The notes under the pieces were generated by a model, which saw only the letters and a list, made by a program, of their open reading frames with translations, had not been told where the DNA came from and did no database searches. This document shows positions 1,268-29,454 of a stretch of DNA of 64,000 bases, one piece after another; position 1 is the stretch's first letter; each line of letters opens with the position of its first letter. Both the position numbers and the translations under genes were made by a program. The stretch covers positions 1 to 64,000 of the forward strand of contig NZ_UUIS01000029.1 in NCBI RefSeq assembly GCF_900589395.1. Direction: 5' to 3'. The stretch comes from Pseudomonas viridiflava. GTDB taxonomy: Bacteria; Pseudomonadota; Gammaproteobacteria; Pseudomonadales; Pseudomonadaceae.

Positions 1268-4200
1268 GAAAACAACTCCTGTTCCAATTTACGTGGCAGC
1301 AAGTCAGTGTTTTTCGCTGCTTTCATTGTGTGTTTGGCAATCGCGAACAGAGCCACCTTCAACTCGGAGCGGAGCTCGTTCAGCTCAAGGACGACTGATT
1401 GCCAATCACCCCCACCCAGACCCAGCATCGCGGCGGTCTGATTTGCGTTGTAGATATAGCTCGGGCCGGTGACCTCAAGCTCAGGCCCGTTCTCACCCAC
1501 CAGCCGCAGCCCTCCACCGAACGCGCCACCAGCGGCATACCCAGGAACCTTCACAGACTCACCGTTGAGACGACCGCCGGTGGCGATGGTGTCGACCAGA
1601 TCGGCGTAGTTCACCGTGCCGTTTGCCAGGGCCGCCGTCCATGTCGCCTTACCCGAGGCATCAAGACCACGCCCCAGCACCGCTTGATACACCGATTCCA
1701 GCAACGCGACGTTGTTGTCGTAGGTGTTCTGCGCTGCCGATCCGGCCTCCTTGCCTGAAAGCGCAGCGACCACTGCAGCATTCATCGCCTGCATGGCGGC
1801 CGCGACCGACAGTACAGAGTTATCAATGCCGTTGAGCGCATCGAGCTGCGCCTGAGCGCTGGCCAGTTGGGTGTCGTACTGCGCCATTTGCAAGTCGTAG
1901 GCTTTCTTAGCCGCATCGATCTGCGCCTGCAGTGCCTCCACTGACTTTTCAGCGTTGCTGAGCTGCTTGCCGTTGAGCGCATTAAGCTCAGCGATGACAT
2001 TGGCTGTACGGCCTTGCTCGCGGTTGAAGTCTTCGAGCGACCCGTACAGGCCAGTGTCGTTGCTGCTGACGGTGTTCAGAGCATCTTCAAGCCCCTTAAA
2101 GCCCGCAAGAGAGCCGCCAGAGCGGGCTTTGCTCAAGGCGCTCTGCAGCGTTGCCTGAGCCTGGACGCGCAGCCGCTTCACCGTCTCGTCCGAAGTGCCG
2201 TTCAGCGATTTCAGCGCACTTTCAAGCGATGAGCTAATGCTCGACAGATCGCTGATGTTCGCGGTAACAGTGCTGAGCATGTCGCTGAAAGAGGCAGTCC
2301 TGGAGTTATACGCATCGGTTACCGTTTTCTGCTCTGCAGCAATAGCGCGCTGTACAGCGGAAAAGCTCGCAGTAGCCGACGACATCAGTTGTTCAGCGAG
2401 CGCTTGAGCCGCTTGGGCCGCCGCGTCAGCCGCTGCCTGAGCCGCCTGGGCCGCTGCGTCGGCCGCTGCCTGGGCGGTGGCTTCCATGGCGTCGAACACC
2501 GTGCCGGCCGCTGCTGCAACACTTAACAACGATTCCAGCATCGCCTTGCCGGCGGTCGACGTGTCCTTCTCGGCCGCTTCAACCATTGCCCGAAACGCGG
2601 CGCGGGTACCAGGCAATGTCACGCCCAACAACTTGATTTCTGCCGTAGTGTCAGCAATGGTCCGCGCCGTGTTTTCCGCTTCCGTGTGAAAGGCGCCGTA
2701 GTAATCCGCCTGCCGCTGCTGGAGAACCGCATAGACCTGCGCCGCCGATTCAGCATTCGCTGTCATCGCGGTGAATGTCGCGCGCCCTGCCTCAGTTGTC
2801 ACATCAATGGCTTTCAGCATGTCGCGGAAAGCATCTTCTGTGGCTGGCAACTGGACGCCCAAGGCGGCGAACTGCTGACGTACACCCAGGATCGAATCGT
2901 TAGCCCGCTGGGTTTCGCTCGTGAACGCCGCGTAATAGCCGGCAATGTTCGTATTGAGCGTGTCGATGTCCCCCGCTGCCGTCACCAGGCTTTCGACGAT
3001 CCGGCCACCGGCAATCGAGAACGCCGCAGCTTTCACGCCGAGCAGACCCAGGCTGGCATTCACGCTGTACAGGTTATTGACGAAGGTCTGCAGGCTATCG
3101 AAAGTAAACCCGTCGAGCCCGGCGGTCGTCGCGCTGTTGATCGCTGACACGGCCGAATCGCCGAGGCTCGTGAACCAAGCTGTGATATCCGCCTGGATCT
3201 CTTCTGTCGTGCGATCCTGCGTGCTGATGTTCAGCCGCTCGACATTCAAGCCATCGAGCACGGCCTTGTTCAACGTGACGTTCAGCGCGGCGAACAGATC
3301 CATGGCGCCGAGAACCGTGCTGTTATAAGCAGCGCCAAGCGTATCGGCCATCTCTGCATCGGCCATCTCGCCGTATACGAAGCGCTTCTTGTTCGATCCG
3401 AACAACCCGCCTTTTTTCTTTTGGTACTGAAAGTCCTCAGCATTGAACTCGCCACCACTGACCGACAACGCCATGCCGGTGTCTTTCGTGGCCCATTTTG
3501 TGCCGAACAATTTTTCCCCGATAAACGTCTCGACCGCCGTGGCCAACGTCGAGCCGGACAGGATCGCCCCCATTTTGTCACCGAAGATTGATGACATCGT
3601 GCGGTCAGCAAAACCGATGGAAGCAAATGTCAGCGCGCGGTCGAACCCGACCATGCCGGGCAATGCACGCCCAACCTGCGAAAGCTTGGACGTCTGCATG
3701 TCGCTTGTGTCGTAGCGAACACCTGCGTCGTACAGCTTGCCGCTCTGGTACATGCCCATGAGGATTGCCAGCGGCCCCATCATGGCAGAGGTACTAGCCG
3801 CAGCACTGGCCGCCGCTGCGCTCTCAGCAGCAGCGTAGGACACAGTTCCGGTGATCGCGCCGAACTGGGTTGCATAACCGGCCGCAGCGGCCTCCATACC
3901 CACGGACAGCGAAGCGGCAGTCACGCCTTCGGCCCCGACAATTGCCGCAGTTTGTGCTGCCGTGCTGCCGGTAATCGTGGCCATCAACCCGCTGAAACCA
4001 CTGCTGATCGAAGCACCGACACTGGACAACATCGATGTGTAATAGCCCACCCCGCCACTGACCGCGCCGCCGATCCCGCCCGTGGCGTAACCGCCCGCGA
4101 TGCTGGAACCGACACCAGTCAGCGAACTCCACGCCTGATACAGCGACTTGCCAATGCCTGCCAGCGAGCCGCCGCCCAGGCCGCCGATGGATACACCGCC

Positions 4201-12249: not shown

Positions 12250-13200
12250 TCAGAGGGTTGCTTGAATGTTCATGGCCGAAGCCCGCAGGCCGACCCGGCC
12301 GGACTGACGCTGCGTACGCGCCTGAATCACGGCCCGCGCTAGATCATCAACGGCCGCTTGCGGGCTCAGCAGGCGATCAGCAAGGCCCGCCGTAATGCCG
12401 GCTTGCCCGCGATACAGGCCAGCCTCGGTAGCACGCACCGCTTCGATACTGAGCCCGCGATAATCGGATATAGCCCCAGCGAATAGCACATAACTTTCCT
12501 GCACCAGTTCGCTCAGGACCTTCATCGACTGCTCGGTCAGCGGCTCGTTGGGGGAAAGGTCGTTCTTGTGAGCCCCGGCGTAAACGGTTGTCACCTTCAC
12601 GCCCTGAGCCTCTTGCTGCTTGGAGCGATCCATGTGACTGGCGATGACACCAATCGAACCGACCCCACTGGTCATGCTCACGACCACCTCACTGCACGCC
12701 GCCGCAATCAGGTAGCCGCCGCTGTACGCCATGAAGTTGACGATTGCGGCAATCGGCTTGATCAAGGACATGGCCCGGATATCGGCAGCCAGCTCGAACG
12801 CGCCGACGGCCGAGCCGCCGGGGGTGTCGATGTCCAGCACGATGCGCTCGACCAGCGGGTCAGCGATGGCCTGCCGCAGTTGCTGCCGAAGGCCCTCATA
12901 GCTGGTCATCGTCTCGCAGGCATTGATATGGCTGCCGCGACTGACCAGGAAGCCATGCACAGCGATGACCTGCACACCGGTGGCCACCAGTTGCGCCCGG
13001 CGCCGATCTTCCTCTTGCTCGGCCAAGGCTTGGGCGTCATCGTCGTCGAAGCCCAAGTTCGCCACCGTGCCGGGCGCCAGGTTGATAATGTTGAGGTTCA
13101 TTGCCTGGTTGGCCCAACGCACGCCCAGGTCGAGCATGTCAGGGGAAACCAGCAACGGCTGATTGAACAACAGGCCTGAAGCCCGCAGGTAATGCTTCAT
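12250..13200 (-). CDS. S49-family (SppA-like) prohead protease
   Basis: A 316-residue serine protease of the S49 type used as capsid maturation protease and minor head protein (lambda C-like). The nucleophile Ser160 lies in FMAYSGGYLIAAAC and the general base Lys212 in AGAHKNDLSPNEP. The DTPGGSAVGAFELA oxyanion-region motif (near 125-138) is present. Its ATG overlaps the portal stop (ATGA). It should cleave the N-terminal delta domain of the major capsid protein encoded next. No separate scaffold gene is visible, so the capsid delta domain probably acts as the scaffold. Confidence 0.93.
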   Translation of the reverse strand: MKHYLRASGLLFNQPLLVSPDMLDLGVRWANQAMNLNIINLAPGTVANLGFDDDDAQALAEQEEDRRRAQLVATGVQVIAVHGFLVSRGSHINACETMTSYEGLRQQLRQAIADPLVERIVLDIDTPGGSAVGAFELAADIRAMSLIKPIAAIVNFMAYSGGYLIAAACSEVVVSMTSGVGSIGVIASHMDRSKQQEAQGVKVTTVYAGAHKNDLSPNEPLTEQSMKVLSELVQESYVLFAGAISDYRGLSIEAVRATEAGLYRGQAGITAGLADRLLSPQAAVDDLARAVIQARTQRQSGRVGLRASAMNIQATL

Positions 13201-14471
13201 TGGGCAAGCATCCTCTCGATCTCGCGCTGTTGCAGCTCCAGCTGCGCACGCACCATCGGGTTGTTGGGGTCAGGCGCCGTCTTGCCGGTACCGACCATGT
13301 TCAGGGGTTGCAGGTAAACATCACCGCCCTCCACCGGGGGCATGTTCTCCAGGCGGCGAATGTCGTTGACCGACAGCCAGCCCCACTGCCGGCCAATGGC
13401 GTAGGCGTCATAGCGGGACTTCTGATCGCCCCGCATCAGGCCGGCCACATTGAACTCAATGAAGTACTCGCGGCGATCCGCGCGCAGCAGGAAGTCACGC
13501 ATCATTGCCTGCTCGTGCCGCTTCACCCACGGCAGCAGGCCAAACACCACGAACTGGATCAGCAGTTGCTCGATGGTGTTGTAGTTGGCCTTGTCCAGGT
13601 CGTTGACCATCGGCAGCGGGATCTTGTAGATCCGTGCGCAGTCCACGCCGGAGAGCTTGAGCATGCTGATGATTTCGGCATCGACGTTGGTCATCGACAC
13701 CGGCCGGAAGGTCATGCCTTCCTGCAACATGGCCACTTTCTTGGCGTTGTCCATACCGCCGAACTTGTTGCCCCACTGATCAAGGATCCGGTCAATAGAC
13801 CCCTGATCCTTGATCGCCATCGACTCGCGCGGCCGCTCGATCACGCCCGATACGGCGGCACCGTTGGCAAACGACTTGCCGGAGTACTGTCGCACCGCCT
13901 GCGCCAGGCCCACGGCCTCGGCGTGCAGCATGATTGGCGACAGCCCCTCATAGCTGTTCAGCGAGTGCCAGCGCACATGGTGGATCTGGCGCATGGCCAA
14001 GCGATCCGGCAACGTGCCGACCTGGTAATACGGCATCAGGTCCGTGCCCTTGAGCACGATTACCTTGTCGTTATCCAGAGGCCAGAGCGCCGCCACGTTA
14101 CCGTCAGGCCGCCGCTCGATGAAGCTGTAGGCGTTGCCCCGCAGCCCGAGCGCCATCTGGCCACCCTCACGAAACTCGTAAGGGGTCTGACGTGCGTTCG
14201 GCTGCCAGCGCAGCACGTCATACAGCGGATGATTAATGGCGGCATCGCGCTGACCATTGCCCGACCGCCTGTACAACTCCAACGGCAGCTGGGCCACGCT
14301 CTCGGCCAGCAACGTCACACAGTTCTGAATAATCGGCACCGCCAGGGCGCTATCAGGTGTGACCTGTACGCCGGTGCTGCTCTTGCCGGACCCGATCAAC
14401 CCCCGCCAGAAAGTGCCGACCGGACTGGAGACTACGCCGCTCGACGTGCCCCGTTGTTTGCTAAGGAACAT
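13197..14471 (-). CDS. Portal protein, HK97 family
   Basis: A 424-residue portal protein. It carries the family signatures VTPDSALAVPIIQNCVTLLAESVAQLPLELYRR, HPLYDVLRWQPNARQTPYEFRE, GNAYSFIERRPDG, and HHVRWHSLNSYEGLSPI, then the clip/crown region YNTIEQLLIQFVVFGLLPWVKRHEQ. The dodecameric portal sits at one capsid vertex, docks the terminase and later the connector. It overlaps the protease gene by 4 nt. The length is normal for HK97-type portals, and ATG 14471 follows the small membrane-protein gene by 2 nt. Confidence 0.94.
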   Translation of the reverse strand: MFLSKQRGTSSGVVSSPVGTFWRGLIGSGKSSTGVQVTPDSALAVPIIQNCVTLLAESVAQLPLELYRRSGNGQRDAAINHPLYDVLRWQPNARQTPYEFREGGQMALGLRGNAYSFIERRPDGNVAALWPLDNDKVIVLKGTDLMPYYQVGTLPDRLAMRQIHHVRWHSLNSYEGLSPIMLHAEAVGLAQAVRQYSGKSFANGAAVSGVIERPRESMAIKDQGSIDRILDQWGNKFGGMDNAKKVAMLQEGMTFRPVSMTNVDAEIISMLKLSGVDCARIYKIPLPMVNDLDKANYNTIEQLLIQFVVFGLLPWVKRHEQAMMRDFLLRADRREYFIEFNVAGLMRGDQKSRYDAYAIGRQWGWLSVNDIRRLENMPPVEGGDVYLQPLNMVGTGKTAPDPNNPMVRAQLELQQREIERMLAQ

Positions 14472-14473
14472 GG

Positions 14474-14665
14474 TCAGCCTCCATCCGGGTCAGGTTTTGC
14501 CGGGACAACGCCTGCCGCTGCCTTGTCGGCCAACCAGGACCAGGCCATCAGCATCACGCCGGCCACGATGAGCGCGACCGGCACGCTGATGAGCGCCACA
14601 CCGGCGACCAGCAGGCCGAAGCCGAACAGGCCGGCGACCCAGGCCAGGACTTCAAGAATTCGCAT
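14474..14665 (-). CDS. Small phage membrane protein
   Basis: A 63-residue protein with two hydrophobic segments (LEVLAWVAGLFGFGLLVAGVA and VPVALIVAGVMLMAWSWLA) and a short charged tail ending in KPDPDGG. The start at 14665 (MRILEVLAW) is preceded by GGGTGGG and overlaps the upstream gene by 14 nt; the in-frame ATG at 14677 is an alternative. Small two-helix proteins of unknown role are frequent between terminase and portal genes. A holin-like activity is possible but nothing in the sequence proves it. Confidence 0.6.
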   Translation of the reverse strand: MRILEVLAWVAGLFGFGLLVAGVALISVPVALIVAGVMLMAWSWLADKAAAGVVPAKPDPDGG

Positions 14666-15356
14666 GTACCCACCCATTTACAATTGAAGGACGGGGCTTG
14701 GGCTCCCCAGCACCACTGAGGTGGATCGCCATCAATGTGGCAACTGCCCCACCGATGTGGCCCCTGACCTCCCCTTTCCAAAGGCTGCACGGCTTACCGT
14801 CAAGGTAAACGGGCTTGGCGTTATCGAAGCACAGGGTTAACACCGGGTTGTCTGCACAGCGCAGATCGGTCCCCACGGACAAACGACCTAGCGCTTCCAG
14901 GGCCGGCCCCATCACCTTGCTGCCCACAGAGCAGCCAGCAAACTCGGGCAAGGAAGTGCCTACCACGTCGAGATACGGCTGAAGGTCATGGATCCTCCAT
15001 CGGTCAAATGCGATGCCGCTGATGAGCGCACCTGGACACGCAGCGCAGAGTGCCGCGATTTGCTGCAACACAAATGGCCTGAAGGCCGTGCCCTCGGGGC
15101 AACTGACGACATGCTTTCCGAGAAGCGCCTCAAACCAGAATGCGTCGTTGCCCGCCAGTCGGCCGCGCAGTTCAACCTCTGGCATCCAGAAGTGTGAGAA
15201 CAACCGCCAGCACGGATCGTCAGGAATGGGCGCGAACAGCACCACGAACGACGCCAGGCCAGCAGAGTTGAGGTCGAGTGCGCCGTACCCGATGCGGGCT
15301 GCCATAGGTATCGCCGAAAAGTCCGGGCCGACAGCGGTTGAGGATGTCTGATTCAT
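14652..15356 (-). CDS. Stand-alone paralogue of the terminase nuclease domain, catalytic Asp missing
   Basis: A 234-residue protein starting at ATG 15356, which overlaps the terL stop by 4 nt (ATGA). It aligns along its length with the C-terminal nuclease domain of the neighbouring large terminase: GYGALDLNSAG vs VAGLDLASTTD, PCWRLFSHFWMPEVEL vs PHWRLLTYFWIPDNDL, IAFDRWRIHDL vs IAYDRWRIEDL, ADNPVLTLCFDNA vs DDNPVMTWCASNA, and GHIGGAVATLMA vs GRIDGIVAALMA. Asp28 and Asp118 match TerL Asp379 and Asp467, but TerL Asp581 is replaced by Gly202. No ATPase domain is present. It looks like a duplicated, probably inactive or altered RNase H-fold domain; the function is unknown. Confidence 0.8.
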   Translation of the reverse strand: MNQTSSTAVGPDFSAIPMAARIGYGALDLNSAGLASFVVLFAPIPDDPCWRLFSHFWMPEVELRGRLAGNDAFWFEALLGKHVVSCPEGTAFRPFVLQQIAALCAACPGALISGIAFDRWRIHDLQPYLDVVGTSLPEFAGCSVGSKVMGPALEALGRLSVGTDLRCADNPVLTLCFDNAKPVYLDGKPCSLWKGEVRGHIGGAVATLMAIHLSGAGEPKPRPSIVNGWVHANS

Positions 15357-17188
15357 ATGCCTACACCTTCGTCGTAAATTGATTTGCCACCGACCACACG
15401 GCCGGTACCACTGAGTCCGGTCGCCATGAGGGCCGCGACAATGCCGTCGATGCGGCCGGTGGCTTTGGCCTTGTCGGCCTTGCGATTGCCCGCCGGGTCG
15501 CTGACGATCACCGCGTTGCTTGCGCACCAGGTCATGACCGGGTTGTCGTCATGGCGAAGGGTCTCGATCTCAATAACCTCGACAACCTCGCTGATGACCT
15601 CGAAGTCTTCAGGCCCAAGATCGATCACGTCGCCCTGTTCAGCAGCAGGTTCCATCCCCAGCAAGCGGCGCTCGAATTCGTCCACAGCCGGCCCCATCTC
15701 CTTGAACCCTTGCCCAAAGGGCACCATCTCGGGCAGCGCGATGTCGTGCTCGATCATCAGTTGCAGAAGGTCTTCGATCCGCCAACGGTCGTAGGCGATT
15801 TTGATCACGTCGAAGTACGCACAGATCGTCTGCAAACGGCGCAGCACGAACAGCTTGCTGATCGCCCGACCCGGCGTGGTCTCCAGATGCTTGTCCTTGA
15901 TCCACAAGGAATACGGCACCTTGTCGCGCTTCTCGCGCTCGGCCAGGTCGTTATCTGGAATCCAGAAGTAGGTGAGTAACCGCCAGTGCGGATCCCAAGG
16001 GACCGGGTAGAACAGCAGCACCAGAGCTGTCAGGTCGGTTGTGCTGGCAAGGTCGAGGCCCGCCACGCACGGCCGGTCGCGCAGCATCCGCATCGGTACC
16101 CGCTCAGCGGCCTGGCTCCAGACTTCCCAACTGATCCACGGCGACTCTGCCTGGGTCCATTCGCAGAAGTTGAGCCGGCGCACAACAGACTCTTGAGCCG
16201 GCAGCCCCCGCGCGGCGCGCACTTGCTCGCGCAAGTAGTTGCGGCCGGGGATACCGTCGCTCAGCCCCTCGGCAATGAAGTCCAGACTGGGGTTGACCTT
16301 GGGCCAACAGCTTTCATCCTTGAACGGATCGTCGCCTTCATCCAGCGAGCAGATGAACGCGAAGAAGCTGTCGTCCTCTTCCTGGCCTTCACAGATCCGC
16401 ACGCCGAGATCGTGGTACTGACCGCAGACCGTCTTCTTGTCCGACCCGCTGTTCGTGATCATCACCACCAAGGCCTTGCGGCGGTTCTTGGTGCCGGCCC
16501 GCATCATGTTCACAACCGTGGCGGTCTTGTGCTCGTGGATCTCATCGAGCAACCCGACATGGGGACGGGGGCCGGACTGGCCTTCGTCCGCACTGATGGG
16601 ACGGAAAAAGCTGTTGGTGTTCGGGTAGAACAGGTTCCAGACCTTCTCGTCACGGCCCGACTGCACGACCCTGGCCACCAGCGCGGGCGACATGTTGACC
16701 ATGGAGACGGCATCGCGGAACAGGATCATGGCCTGGTCGCGCTTCGTTGCCGCAGCGTAGACCTCGGCCCGCTGTTCACCGTCCGACACAAGCCCGTACA
16801 GGCCAATGCCCGCCACCAGCGGCGACTTGCCCGAGCCCTTGCCTGTCTCAACATAGGCAAGACGAAAGCGCCGCCGCCCCTCATTGGTCATCCAGCCGAA
16901 CAAGCTACCGACGACAAAGGCCTGCCAGGGCGCCAACAGAAACGGCATGCCCTCATAGTCGCCGCCGTTGAGGCACAGCACGTCTTCGAAAAAACCCAGC
17001 GCCCTGTCGCATGCTTCCTGGTCCCAGACCAGCCCGCGCTCGGGGCCGTGCTCGCGGTCGCGCAGGTGTCGACGGCAGGCGTTTCGCACATCGGGGCCGA
17101 CGATGATTTCGCCCGCCAGCGCAGCATGGGCAAAGGCCGTTACACGGTCATCAACTGAAGTATCGGGTGGCGGCGTCTCGTTCGTCAT
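15353..17188 (-). CDS. terL: Terminase large subunit (packaging ATPase/nuclease)
   Basis: A 611-residue Terminase_1 (HK97-type) protein. The N-terminal ATPase has Walker A TGKGSGKS (115-122) and Walker B LLDE (213-216). The C-terminal RNase H-like nuclease has Asp379 (GLDLAS), Asp467 (YDRWRIED) and Asp581 (GRIDGIVAALMA). An acidic insert near 515-545 (DVIDLGPEDFEVISEVVEVIEIE) lies inside the nuclease domain and is absent from the neighbouring paralogue. The protein cuts concatemers and pumps DNA through the portal. With an adjacent HNH gene and P27-type small subunit, cos-type packaging is likely. It overlaps terS by 38 nt. Confidence 0.95.
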   Translation of the reverse strand: MTNETPPPDTSVDDRVTAFAHAALAGEIIVGPDVRNACRRHLRDREHGPERGLVWDQEACDRALGFFEDVLCLNGGDYEGMPFLLAPWQAFVVGSLFGWMTNEGRRRFRLAYVETGKGSGKSPLVAGIGLYGLVSDGEQRAEVYAAATKRDQAMILFRDAVSMVNMSPALVARVVQSGRDEKVWNLFYPNTNSFFRPISADEGQSGPRPHVGLLDEIHEHKTATVVNMMRAGTKNRRKALVVMITNSGSDKKTVCGQYHDLGVRICEGQEEDDSFFAFICSLDEGDDPFKDESCWPKVNPSLDFIAEGLSDGIPGRNYLREQVRAARGLPAQESVVRRLNFCEWTQAESPWISWEVWSQAAERVPMRMLRDRPCVAGLDLASTTDLTALVLLFYPVPWDPHWRLLTYFWIPDNDLAEREKRDKVPYSLWIKDKHLETTPGRAISKLFVLRRLQTICAYFDVIKIAYDRWRIEDLLQLMIEHDIALPEMVPFGQGFKEMGPAVDEFERRLLGMEPAAEQGDVIDLGPEDFEVISEVVEVIEIETLRHDDNPVMTWCASNAVIVSDPAGNRKADKAKATGRIDGIVAALMATGLSGTGRVVGGKSIYDEGVGI

Positions 17189-17684
17189 TGGTGAATAGCT
17201 CGCCTTGCGGCTGCATGGCCGTCTTCATGTTGCGACGTGCCATCGGTGAGAAACCGAAGGCAGCACCCGCTGCGTTCGCCCGCTTCTCTGCATCGTTGGC
17301 CAGTTGCCGAAGGACGTGCATTTGCTGCGCGCCGGTTTTGAATGTCTGAATGTCGCCGGCCAGCTCATCGTCCGAGGCCCGATTGCGAGCCGCGATCAAG
17401 CGCTGGTACTTGAGCCAGTCGCCGTAGGCCTGGCAGTAGGTCGCCAGCGCCAGCAGGTCAAGACGCGATACCAAACCAAGGGCCATCAGGTCCGGCATCA
17501 AGCGTTCCCACTCAGCCACGGCATCGTCACTGAGGACATCGGGCATCGGCGGAGCAGCCACCGGCACGGCCGGTTGCTTGACCTCATCGATCAGCTCGTT
17601 GAAGTTCTTTTTGCTGCGGTTCCCTTGTAGGATATGGATCGCAGCTGGCTTGGACGGACGCCCGGAATTCCCATTTCCCGCCAT
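17151..17684 (-). CDS. terS: Terminase small subunit, P27 family
   Basis: A 177-residue protein with the P27-family opening GRPSKPAAIHILQGNRSKKNFNE, followed by the helical core DAVAEWERLMPDLMALGLVSRLDLLALATYCQAYGDWLKYQRLI and a C-terminal GFSPMARRNMK segment. It recognises the packaging start on phage DNA and loads the large subunit. ATG 17684. The 138 bp between it and the HNH gene contain C-rich and A-rich runs and may hold the cos region, but no cos sequence can be assigned by eye. Confidence 0.92.
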   Translation of the reverse strand: MAGNGNSGRPSKPAAIHILQGNRSKKNFNELIDEVKQPAVPVAAPPMPDVLSDDAVAEWERLMPDLMALGLVSRLDLLALATYCQAYGDWLKYQRLIAARNRASDDELAGDIQTFKTGAQQMHVLRQLANDAEKRANAAGAAFGFSPMARRNMKTAMQPQGELFTNDERDAATRYFS

Positions 17685-27586: not shown

Positions 27587-28585
27587 TCAATCAAGCCTTG
27601 CCGCCATCTCGGCGGCAGTGGCGTTGTAATAGACCATCAGCGAACGCGGATCCTTATGGCCAGTGATCCGGGCTAGGTCAAGCACATCCACCTTGCGCGC
27701 AAGCCGCGTAGTTGCCTCATGCCTTGTGTCATGGAAGTGCAAATCCACAATCTTCAACTCGTCCCTGACCTTCCTGAACATTGCATCCGCAGATCCAGAC
27801 TCAAGCCTGAACACAGCACCCTCCCCTGTGCGGTCACGCAACAATACTTCCAGCAGATCACCTGCCCGCTTCGTCAACGGCACGTTACGGCTGTCGCCGT
27901 TCTTTGTCTTGGCCAGGTGCACATACCGATCCTTCAGGCGAACAGACTTTAACGTCAGCCCCAAAATTTCCCCCTGACGCATGCCAGTCTCCAAAGCCAA
28001 CAAGAAGACATAAGCAAGCTCTTGCTGCAGCGTGATCGGTGCAGCGCCTTCAACGTACCCGAAGCGATCTATTAGGGCCCTCTCTTCAGCAACGGTGATT
28101 CGTCGATCACGCGGCCGGCCATTAGAAGGACGCTTCACCTCCCGTACCGGGTTAATGGTGCAACACTTCCACTCACGCCTGGCAATTTCAAACACTGAAG
28201 AAAGCAATGTCATCTCCCGCCGCACCGAGGGGCTCGCAACCTGCTTCAAGCGCAGGTCACGCCAATCAGCGATCTGGTCTGCTGATACGTCATTGATCAG
28301 CAATCCGACGAAACTTAACTCGTTGTCCATCTTGTCTAGGCGCAACTCTTCCCAGCGCTGCCCAGCTTTCGTAGGGGATACGTCTCGCTTGTAGCGCATC
28401 AAAGCATCTGATAGCGTCATTTGATTACTAACTTTCGCCTTGCCGCTACCGCCCAGGATCTCTGCTTCCCGATGCGTAGCCCAAGCAACTGCTGCAGCTT
28501 TTGTAGGAAAGGTTTGGGAATCCCTCACCCCCAGCTTAGCGACCTCAGCTCTCCAGCCACCACTCCGCTTCCTGTAAGACGCCAC
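27587..28585 (-). CDS. int: Tyrosine-family phage integrase
   Basis: A 332-residue integrase. The N-terminal arm-binding domain (YRKRSGGWRAEVAKLGVRDSQTFPTKAAAVAWA) is followed by a core-binding SAM-like domain and a catalytic domain. Catalytic residues are Arg203 (ETGMRQGEI), Lys near 228 (TKNGDSR), His285-x-x-Arg288 (HDTRHEA), His310 (GHKDP) and the nucleophile Tyr319 (VYYNA). GTG 28585 is chosen because AGGGG stands 7 nt upstream; a TTG at 28591 is too close to that site. The gene ends against xis and begins about 155 bp from the attachment core. Confidence 0.93.
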   Translation of the reverse strand: MASYRKRSGGWRAEVAKLGVRDSQTFPTKAAAVAWATHREAEILGGSGKAKVSNQMTLSDALMRYKRDVSPTKAGQRWEELRLDKMDNELSFVGLLINDVSADQIADWRDLRLKQVASPSVRREMTLLSSVFEIARREWKCCTINPVREVKRPSNGRPRDRRITVAEERALIDRFGYVEGAAPITLQQELAYVFLLALETGMRQGEILGLTLKSVRLKDRYVHLAKTKNGDSRNVPLTKRAGDLLEVLLRDRTGEGAVFRLESGSADAMFRKVRDELKIVDLHFHDTRHEATTRLARKVDVLDLARITGHKDPRSLMVYYNATAAEMAARLD

Positions 28586-28740
28586 AGCCAAACCCCTATT
28601 GGCGTAAAAATGGCGTAAAGACTATCACGCCATTGCAACCGGGCGCCTTGAACTGTCGCACTCTTTAAGTCCGAAACCCTTGCAGAACAAGACTTTGCGA
28701 CGAATAGCACCGATCTGAAACTATTAGTCAGAAGTATTAG

Positions 28741-28884: not shown

Positions 28885-29454
28885 TCAAGGTTTAAAAATC
28901 CCTTCTACGAATTGCAAACCGCTCACCTGATGAGCGTCACAGAGCGCCTTTATCCGGGCCACGGCCAGCATGCTTGTAAAGTCTTCCTCAGCCCTGAACA
29001 TGTCCACACGCGTATCAACGTTTTCCTTTAATACAATTTCGGTATAGCGCGCAGGCCCTTCTGGCAAATAGCTCAAAAGCGGCTCGCTCTTTGACTTGCT
29101 TTCATCGAATGCTTTTGACTTCGAGGTAAAATTCACCACCTTGTAACCATGGCATTCAGCTTCCCCCATATAGACGTCAGCGTCAAAAAACTGAAGACCC
29201 TGCACGTCATGGTCCAGTAACAGTTGATGAAACCTGGGGCTTATGAAGTTAGGCCCATCACTGAACAGAAAGTCATAGCTCAACAGGCGTCCCGCATCAG
29301 GCTTTGAGCCGACCCTGAATTCAATCGACACCTCCTCTTCCAGCGGTATGCCTTTTTTAAAAACGCCAGGATCCTGACCGCTCAACACCGTGCAGCGAAA
29401 CCAATAGCTTTCCGGATAATCATCAGAAATTTTTATTAAAAACAGTTTAGTCAC
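28885..29454 (-). CDS. Orphan immunity-like protein (Imm11/Imm43-type)
   Basis: A 189-residue protein. The segment RLLSYDFLFSDGPNFISPRFHQLLLDHDVQGLQFFDADVYMGE...GYKVVNFT resembles the core of Imm11/Imm43 (DUF1629-type) immunity proteins of polymorphic toxin systems. No signal peptide or membrane segment is seen. The local base composition is AT-richer than in neighbouring chromosomal genes, and the gene lies 85 bp from the prophage terminator, both signs of transfer. No toxin gene is next to it. The family call is moderate. Confidence 0.5.
   Translation of the reverse strand: MTKLFLIKISDDYPESYWFRCTVLSGQDPGVFKKGIPLEEEVSIEFRVGSKPDAGRLLSYDFLFSDGPNFISPRFHQLLLDHDVQGLQFFDADVYMGEAECHGYKVVNFTSKSKAFDESKSKSEPLLSYLPEGPARYTEIVLKENVDTRVDMFRAEEDFTSMLAVARIKALCDAHQVSGLQFVEGIFKP

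Follow-up and report, generated by a model that had tools for sequence, protein, structure and literature searches.

Why should a prophage with an intact large terminase gene (terL) also carry, directly behind it, a separate gene resembling the nuclease half of that terminase? The question is raised by a 64,000-nucleotide stretch of Pseudomonas viridiflava contig NZ_UUIS01000029.1 (the window), in which the gene concerned, P0001, begins in the ATGA that ends terL (Table 1). The coordinates, the length of 234 residues and the ATGA coupling given in the initial annotation were all correct, gene and terL both lying on the minus strand; the plus-strand translation of the same interval contains several stops. 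Read in the direction of transcription on the minus strand, and omitting ORFs without a family, the region comprises a primase-like gene, terS, terL, P0001, a small hydrophobic gene, portal, protease and major capsid, and because the genes listed here are open, the prophage shows no obvious sign of ruin in this region. No sigma-70-like site that could give P0001 a promoter of its own was seen between 13000 and 18000. The small gene starts inside the 3' end of P0001, with an overlap of 14 nt; its product, encoded within a packaging/head operon, has no Pfam match. An Imm11-type immunity protein is encoded at 28885-29454 on the minus strand, adjoining the integrase gene. Elsewhere in the same genome (contig C54:68309-68980) there is a second, unrelated terminase (Terminase_6N, 733-codon open frame), possibly belonging to a second prophage.

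Table 1. Features of the prophage locus, in positions of the window
Feature	Position	Strand	Remarks
P0001, orphan TerL nuclease-domain paralogue	14652..15356	minus	234 aa; D28, D118, K194 kept; Gly202 at third Asp
terL (protein P0002)	15353..17188	minus	full-length HK97-type, 611 aa; TerL_ATPase and TerL_nuclease; D379, D467, D581
ATGA overlap, terL stop / P0001 start	15353..15356	minus	
Small hydrophobic gene	14474..14665	minus	63 aa; membrane-type by eye
Extra 691 bp, terL end to small-gene start	14666..15356	minus	missing in readable relatives
Portal gene	13197..14471	minus	PF04860
terS	17151..17684	minus	Terminase_4
Integrase	27587-28591		

The relationship of P0001 to the terminase is clear. 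By BLASTP, its residues 27-217 align with residues 378-596 of the prophage's own TerL at 32% identity (E 1e-28, far beyond chance), in one frame and with three gaps of 1, 3 and 30 residues. Similarity over the whole length, as originally proposed, holds for this part but not outside it; at the 3' end, the final ~9 codons and the terL tail are read in different frames. The homologous part is a single open frame in which neither a premature stop nor a frameshift, the usual marks of a pseudogene, was found. Two terminase families, PHROG 2699 and PHROG 9, match the protein (E 6.6e-13 and 4.7e-10), and HK97 TerL (6z6d) is its sole PDB sequence match at E<=1 (E 5.8e-17); no Pfam or NCBIfam family, TerL_nuclease PF20441 included, matches at E<=1. 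Only the nuclease region is present in the 234 residues, and the absence of the ATPase was rightly noted from the start. P0001 is not the nuclease part of a terL gene split by an intron or homing endonuclease, for the terL in front of it is complete and encodes both domains.

The catalytic residues reported for HK97 TerL are D302, D388 and D471, with K463 as the active-site lysine (PMC9410871). D302 corresponds to D379 in the prophage TerL and to D28 in P0001, D388 to D467 and D118, and K463 to K573 and K194, while D471 corresponds to D581 in TerL and to Gly202 in P0001. The retention of two of three Asp with Gly202 in place of TerL Asp581 is thus exact in the alignment to TerLs and HK97. The third Asp is invariant in all 66 aligned TerLs. 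Across these 66 sequences 54 columns are conserved, 53 of which are aligned in P0001; it keeps 26 and differs at 27, and the losses beyond the third Asp include D385->Gly33, Q493->Val144, R569/K570->Cys190/Ser191 and K575->Glu196 (TerL numbering first). Each of 26 TerLs outside the Pseudomonas type, a broken one (L026) among them, keeps more (32-52 of 53-54). The acidic insert, found in Pseudomonas-, Delftia- and Burkholderiaceae-type TerLs, is missing from P0001 as first described, but also from the HK97 and Halomonas TerLs; P0001 may therefore never have lost it, the state without the insert being, judged from these alignments, possibly the ancestral one.

An active nuclease with an altered site, in which a different residue stands in for the third Asp and DNA such as cos or host DNA is cut, could draw on the retained D28, D118 and K194, and on T4 gp17, whose nuclease function is reported to survive splitting at the linker (PMC3012670). 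In the G20c terminase, however, mutation of the metal-binding Asp, three residues of which D429 is the third in order, is reported to give the lowest activity; these Asp are called indispensable there, with similar observations for SPP1 (PMC5389553), and P0001 should therefore not cut. With the invariance of this Asp among TerLs and the loss of further conserved polar residues also against it, we regard an active enzyme as very improbable.

Despite these losses, the protein is likely to adopt an RNase H fold. An AlphaFold2 model built from a 45-sequence alignment, which otherwise consists of TerLs, comprises a full RNase H domain with a pLDDT of 85.4 and a pTM of 0.83. Its best Foldseek match is 6z6d (E 4.2e-14), and VIA-align superimposes it on this HK97 TerL nuclease over 194 residues (Z 24.1, rmsd 2.3), the next match being the D6E terminase (Z 14.8). 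The structural comparison with TerL that the initial annotation had called for thus comes out in favor of the RNase H fold, as a predicted and not a solved structure. An earlier model from 20 rows was poor (pLDDT 62.5), although it too matched 6z6d, and nothing else, in Foldseek at E<=0.001; the fold assignment uses the 45-sequence model only. The Avs3-terminase complex 8dgc appears among the structural matches by way of its terminase chain, which is no evidence for Avs binding. Taken together, the alignments and the model support the description of P0001 as a stand-alone TerL nuclease paralogue without an ATPase, with an incomplete catalytic site and a predicted RNase H fold.

The survey of how often the gene follows terL, originally suggested as a check, does not support a recurrent gene. 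Outside the window, 115 loci carry a terL of at least 60% identity; some of these are the same phage from two sources, and they are not independent phages. P0001 is absent from all 113 that are readable past terL, and its matches in the 115 fall only inside terL. The small gene directly follows terL in 113 of the 115 (match E<=1), the other two (L088 and L105) ending too early. In the 112 relatives that reach the portal (L095 ends before it), the small gene starts at 205-249 of the scanned stretch, versus 915 in the window. The annotation shown for nine phage loci holds no second terminase-like gene beside terL.

Wider searches gave the same picture. In phage records, tblastn matched P0001 at 171 places in 171 records (60 places listed), all below 60% identity (best 34.6%) and none with two places in one record. 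Among plasmids it matched 80 places in 79 records (40 places listed); the Piscirickettsia salmonis plasmid NZ_CP013780.1 (H125) holds two of these places. Whole genomes with a match, the own genome included, numbered 24 of 298 in the genus (32 of 398 in an overlapping sample), 10 of 390 in the order, 6 of 369 in the class and 7 of 95 among relatives. Outside the own genome, the listed matches lie in open frames of at least 507 codons, with three exceptions, each discarded as a second copy. One (L026) is a terL 3' piece with GRIDG intact in the broken prophage of a genus relative, one (L142) is a terL cut by the contig end and followed by a portal-like ORF, and one (L141) was taken as chance, since the match is weak (E 0.002) and its frame both contains a stop and runs across opposite-strand ORFs. 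The piece in L026 lies beside a truncated portal-like ORF, and the ORFs upstream of it are not terL-like.

Peptide patterns retrieved no orthologue from IMG/VR and GTDB contigs. A DNA pattern for the lost Asp (GxIGGxxAxxMA) returned 27 loci, none matching P0001 or P0002 at E<=0.1, and three motif patterns returned 43 loci; P0001 matches 12 of these, in each case within a stretch that also matches terL. On the IMG/VR contig L085 (4001-5820), the terL match falls into two segments in different frames that meet near 4165, so that either the gene is broken or the sequence contains an error. In the samples of genome, phage, plasmid, IMG/VR and GTDB sets covered, with long match lists partly listed, P0001 is thus, as far as sequence comparison goes, a single, cleanly inserted and fast-diverged copy. 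Likewise, a stand-alone TerL nuclease paralogue was not found in titles and abstract openings of the open-license PMC literature, among the matches listed.

The junctions of the insert suggest where it came from. The 3'-end DNA of P0001, from TCAATT into the small-gene start, aligns with the native terL 3' end, which points to the terL 3' end of the same phage family as the source and not to a distant import. The distance to the G of the small-gene ATG is 25 nt at P0001 versus 29 in native terL, a difference that puts the last codons of P0001 in another frame than those of terL. The small gene of the 14 relatives listed opens with an AAGG-like sequence and ATGA, which we infer to be start signals; here both precede P0001.

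A recent in-place copy of the own terL is not favored, since P0001 lacks the acidic insert and is about equidistant from P0002 and other TerLs of the clade. Its identity is 32.0% to P0002, 28.3-33.6% to Pseudomonas-type loci and 34.6% to a Halomonas phage, and in a MAFFT alignment 35% to P0002 versus 32-35% to others. Site patterns lean to the Pseudomonas type over the Halomonas type: 11 of 31 sites agree with the Pseudomonas type, 3 with the Halomonas type and 17 with neither. The preference for the Pseudomonas type is smaller over the single sequences L138 (11:6) and L131 (15:9), and there is no lean to it over the HK97 type (4:5). Sites marking P0002's own group are too few (2:0 of 4). The branch of P0001 is very long (3.9 and 6.84 versus medians of 0.22 and 0.18), and tree tests reject neither a place inside the Pseudomonas-type clade (p-AU 0.30) nor one as sister to P0002 (0.23). 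The trees cannot place this long branch, and either the prophage's own terL or that of a related phage may have been the source.

Whether the copy is decaying or doing something was addressed by simulation. Aligned TerL codons were mutated at random until the loss of conserved residues equaled that of P0001; this null is free of frameshifting indels, which favors neutrality, and the tests were devised after the data had been seen. Simulated neutral copies acquired on average 3.3-4.7 stops, and only 0.7-4.7% of runs over G+C of 0.55-0.65 (0.8-2.2% over eight starting TerLs) were free of stops, a separate neutral simulation giving 1.4-2.5%. P0001 is hydrophobic at 46 of 54 positions that are hydrophobic in 90% of TerLs, versus simulated means of 36.5-39.1; a core at least as well kept arises under neutrality with P 0.013-0.022 (P 0.004-0.034 over the eight starting TerLs). 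Both properties together occurred in at most 0.1% of neutral runs (0-0.2% from the eight starts). Conserved nonpolar residues are kept at 21 of 34 positions and polar ones at 5 of 19 (Fisher p 0.02; simulated P 0.021-0.030). The simulations support the conclusion that P0001 is not simply drifting.

These results, together with the depth of divergence, make a recent relic unlikely. A foreign terL that had lost its 5' part recently and was decaying without selection would suit the rarity of P0001 and its out-of-frame tail. With only 26 of 53 conserved columns kept, however, fewer than in any of the 26 TerLs of other types, TerL constraint on P0001 ended long ago, and yet the frame has no stop.

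Other features look neutral. In codon adaptation P0001 (0.570) ranks last among the 22 ORFs compared, three others lying at 0.578-0.589. For the aligned part it is 0.580, with GC by codon position of 0.618/0.502/0.689; a simulated neutral copy at G+C 0.60 has 0.60 and 0.614/0.50/0.71-0.73. Substitutions average -0.79 in BLOSUM62 versus -0.71 to -0.79 for neutral copies, no more conservative than random, and 2 of the 26 other TerLs are equally low (-0.77 and -0.79). Codon use and composition therefore resemble those of a neutrally drifting copy. All data fit weak or shifting selection on a still-folding protein, or selection for mere translation combined with luck in the core. The initial annotation had named a rare, single, decayed copy as the outcome that would speak against it: rare and single the gene is, but 'decayed' is half true, for the frame is open and the core kept while codon use, composition and substitution types look neutral.

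Codon use, positional GC and types of substitution that are all close to neutral are what a passenger would show, that is, a diverged terL 3' fragment without protein function whose frame is kept open by coupling within the head operon. Ribosomes would reach the small gene by way of P0001, any stop would have a polar effect, and residues and codon use would drift. This reading, which we consider possible but less probable than a functional protein, is also in keeping with a single copy in the sets searched and with an insert that takes over the next gene's start signal and overlaps that gene. In the simulation P0001 has accumulated 0.34-0.36 substitutions/site since its release, which is in rough agreement with a copy that arose once the nearest relatives sampled had already diverged, the pairwise fourfold-site distance to the 25 closest being 0.83-1.05. 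The passenger reading does not predict the kept hydrophobic core (P 0.004-0.034, as above); moreover, phage operons normally shed dead DNA, and here an exact deletion would be enough to bring back the ancestral junction.

We favor, at about an even chance, the reading of P0001 as a pseudo-nuclease that is translated but does not cut, and on which selection is weak or of the arms-race kind, over that of a passenger ORF. A terL 3'-terminal piece of the same phage family would have been placed between terL and the small gene, either as a duplicate or through recombination with a related phage, and would have taken over the small gene's start signals. Freed from TerL function, it would have lost its catalytic and polar surface while staying an open, foldable RNase H-like domain, most likely co-translated with TerL. 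Such a protein would occupy a site where the TerL nuclease domain acts or is recognized; the partner might be TerL itself, cos/packaging DNA, the portal, or a TerL-binding protein of a competitor or the host. The roles originally proposed, namely competition with TerL, control of cutting or membership of a mixed motor, are hypothetical. By analogy, a non-cutting rival for the TerL nuclease site is plausible: T4 gp17 nuclease mutants are reported still to package linear DNA, and the split gp17 domains to keep their separate activities and lose translocation (PMC3012670), which shows that a nuclease domain can stand alone, detached from the motor.

More specifically, the captured half could be a decoy, a TerL look-alike for a host sensor of the Avs kind, or a poison of a superinfecting related phage's motor. 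Avs systems are reported to recognize the large terminase (PMC12931631), and a decoy shaped by an arms race would be expected to lose its catalytic surface, keep its core, change its residues almost neutrally and occur in one lineage, as P0001 does; we nevertheless hold this version to be improbable. Two possibilities are thus left for P0001: a helper or decoy protein, captured and rare, or a remnant that is still being read.

Either answer would be informative. Terminase motors are generally taken as rings of identical TerL subunits. If co-translated and nuclease-dead, P0001 would serve as a naturally occurring decoy or dominant-negative and could help to explain how the motor holds back cutting while it packages; if a passenger, it would be a clean example of a duplicated domain surviving in a phage operon with its frame open and its residues drifting.

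Among known systems, the closest is the HK97-type TerL nuclease (HK97 gp2, 6z6d; PHROG 9 and 2699; PF20441), with which P0001 shares homology, the predicted RNase H fold with its hairpin, the equivalents of D302 and D388 and the active-site Lys. Unlike it, P0001 is a separate gene beside an intact terL, has no ATPase, carries Gly in place of the third Asp and does not match PF20441. Phage terminase entries of similar length in BFVD, a 264-aa one from Leuconostoc phage CHB and a 268-aa 'fragment' from phage GMSE-1, match the P0001 model, whereas here a full TerL is present too. The phi29-type packaging ATPase is reported to bear an inactive, vestigial TerL-type nuclease domain (PMC9410871), but that domain is fused to the motor ATPase, while P0001 is an extra, separate protein. 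In herpesviruses, the C-terminal part of the terminase is likewise found as a separate protein, UL15.5; this N-terminally truncated product in HSV-1, described as dispensable and of unknown function in the source cited (PMC3079670), comes from the same gene, whereas P0001 is a diverged second gene. Finally, the Pseudomonas aeruginosa prophage protein Tab, reported to block virion assembly of invading phages (PMC10884400), sets a precedent for prophage genes that interfere with the assembly of a different phage, although Tab acts on tails and has no terminase link.
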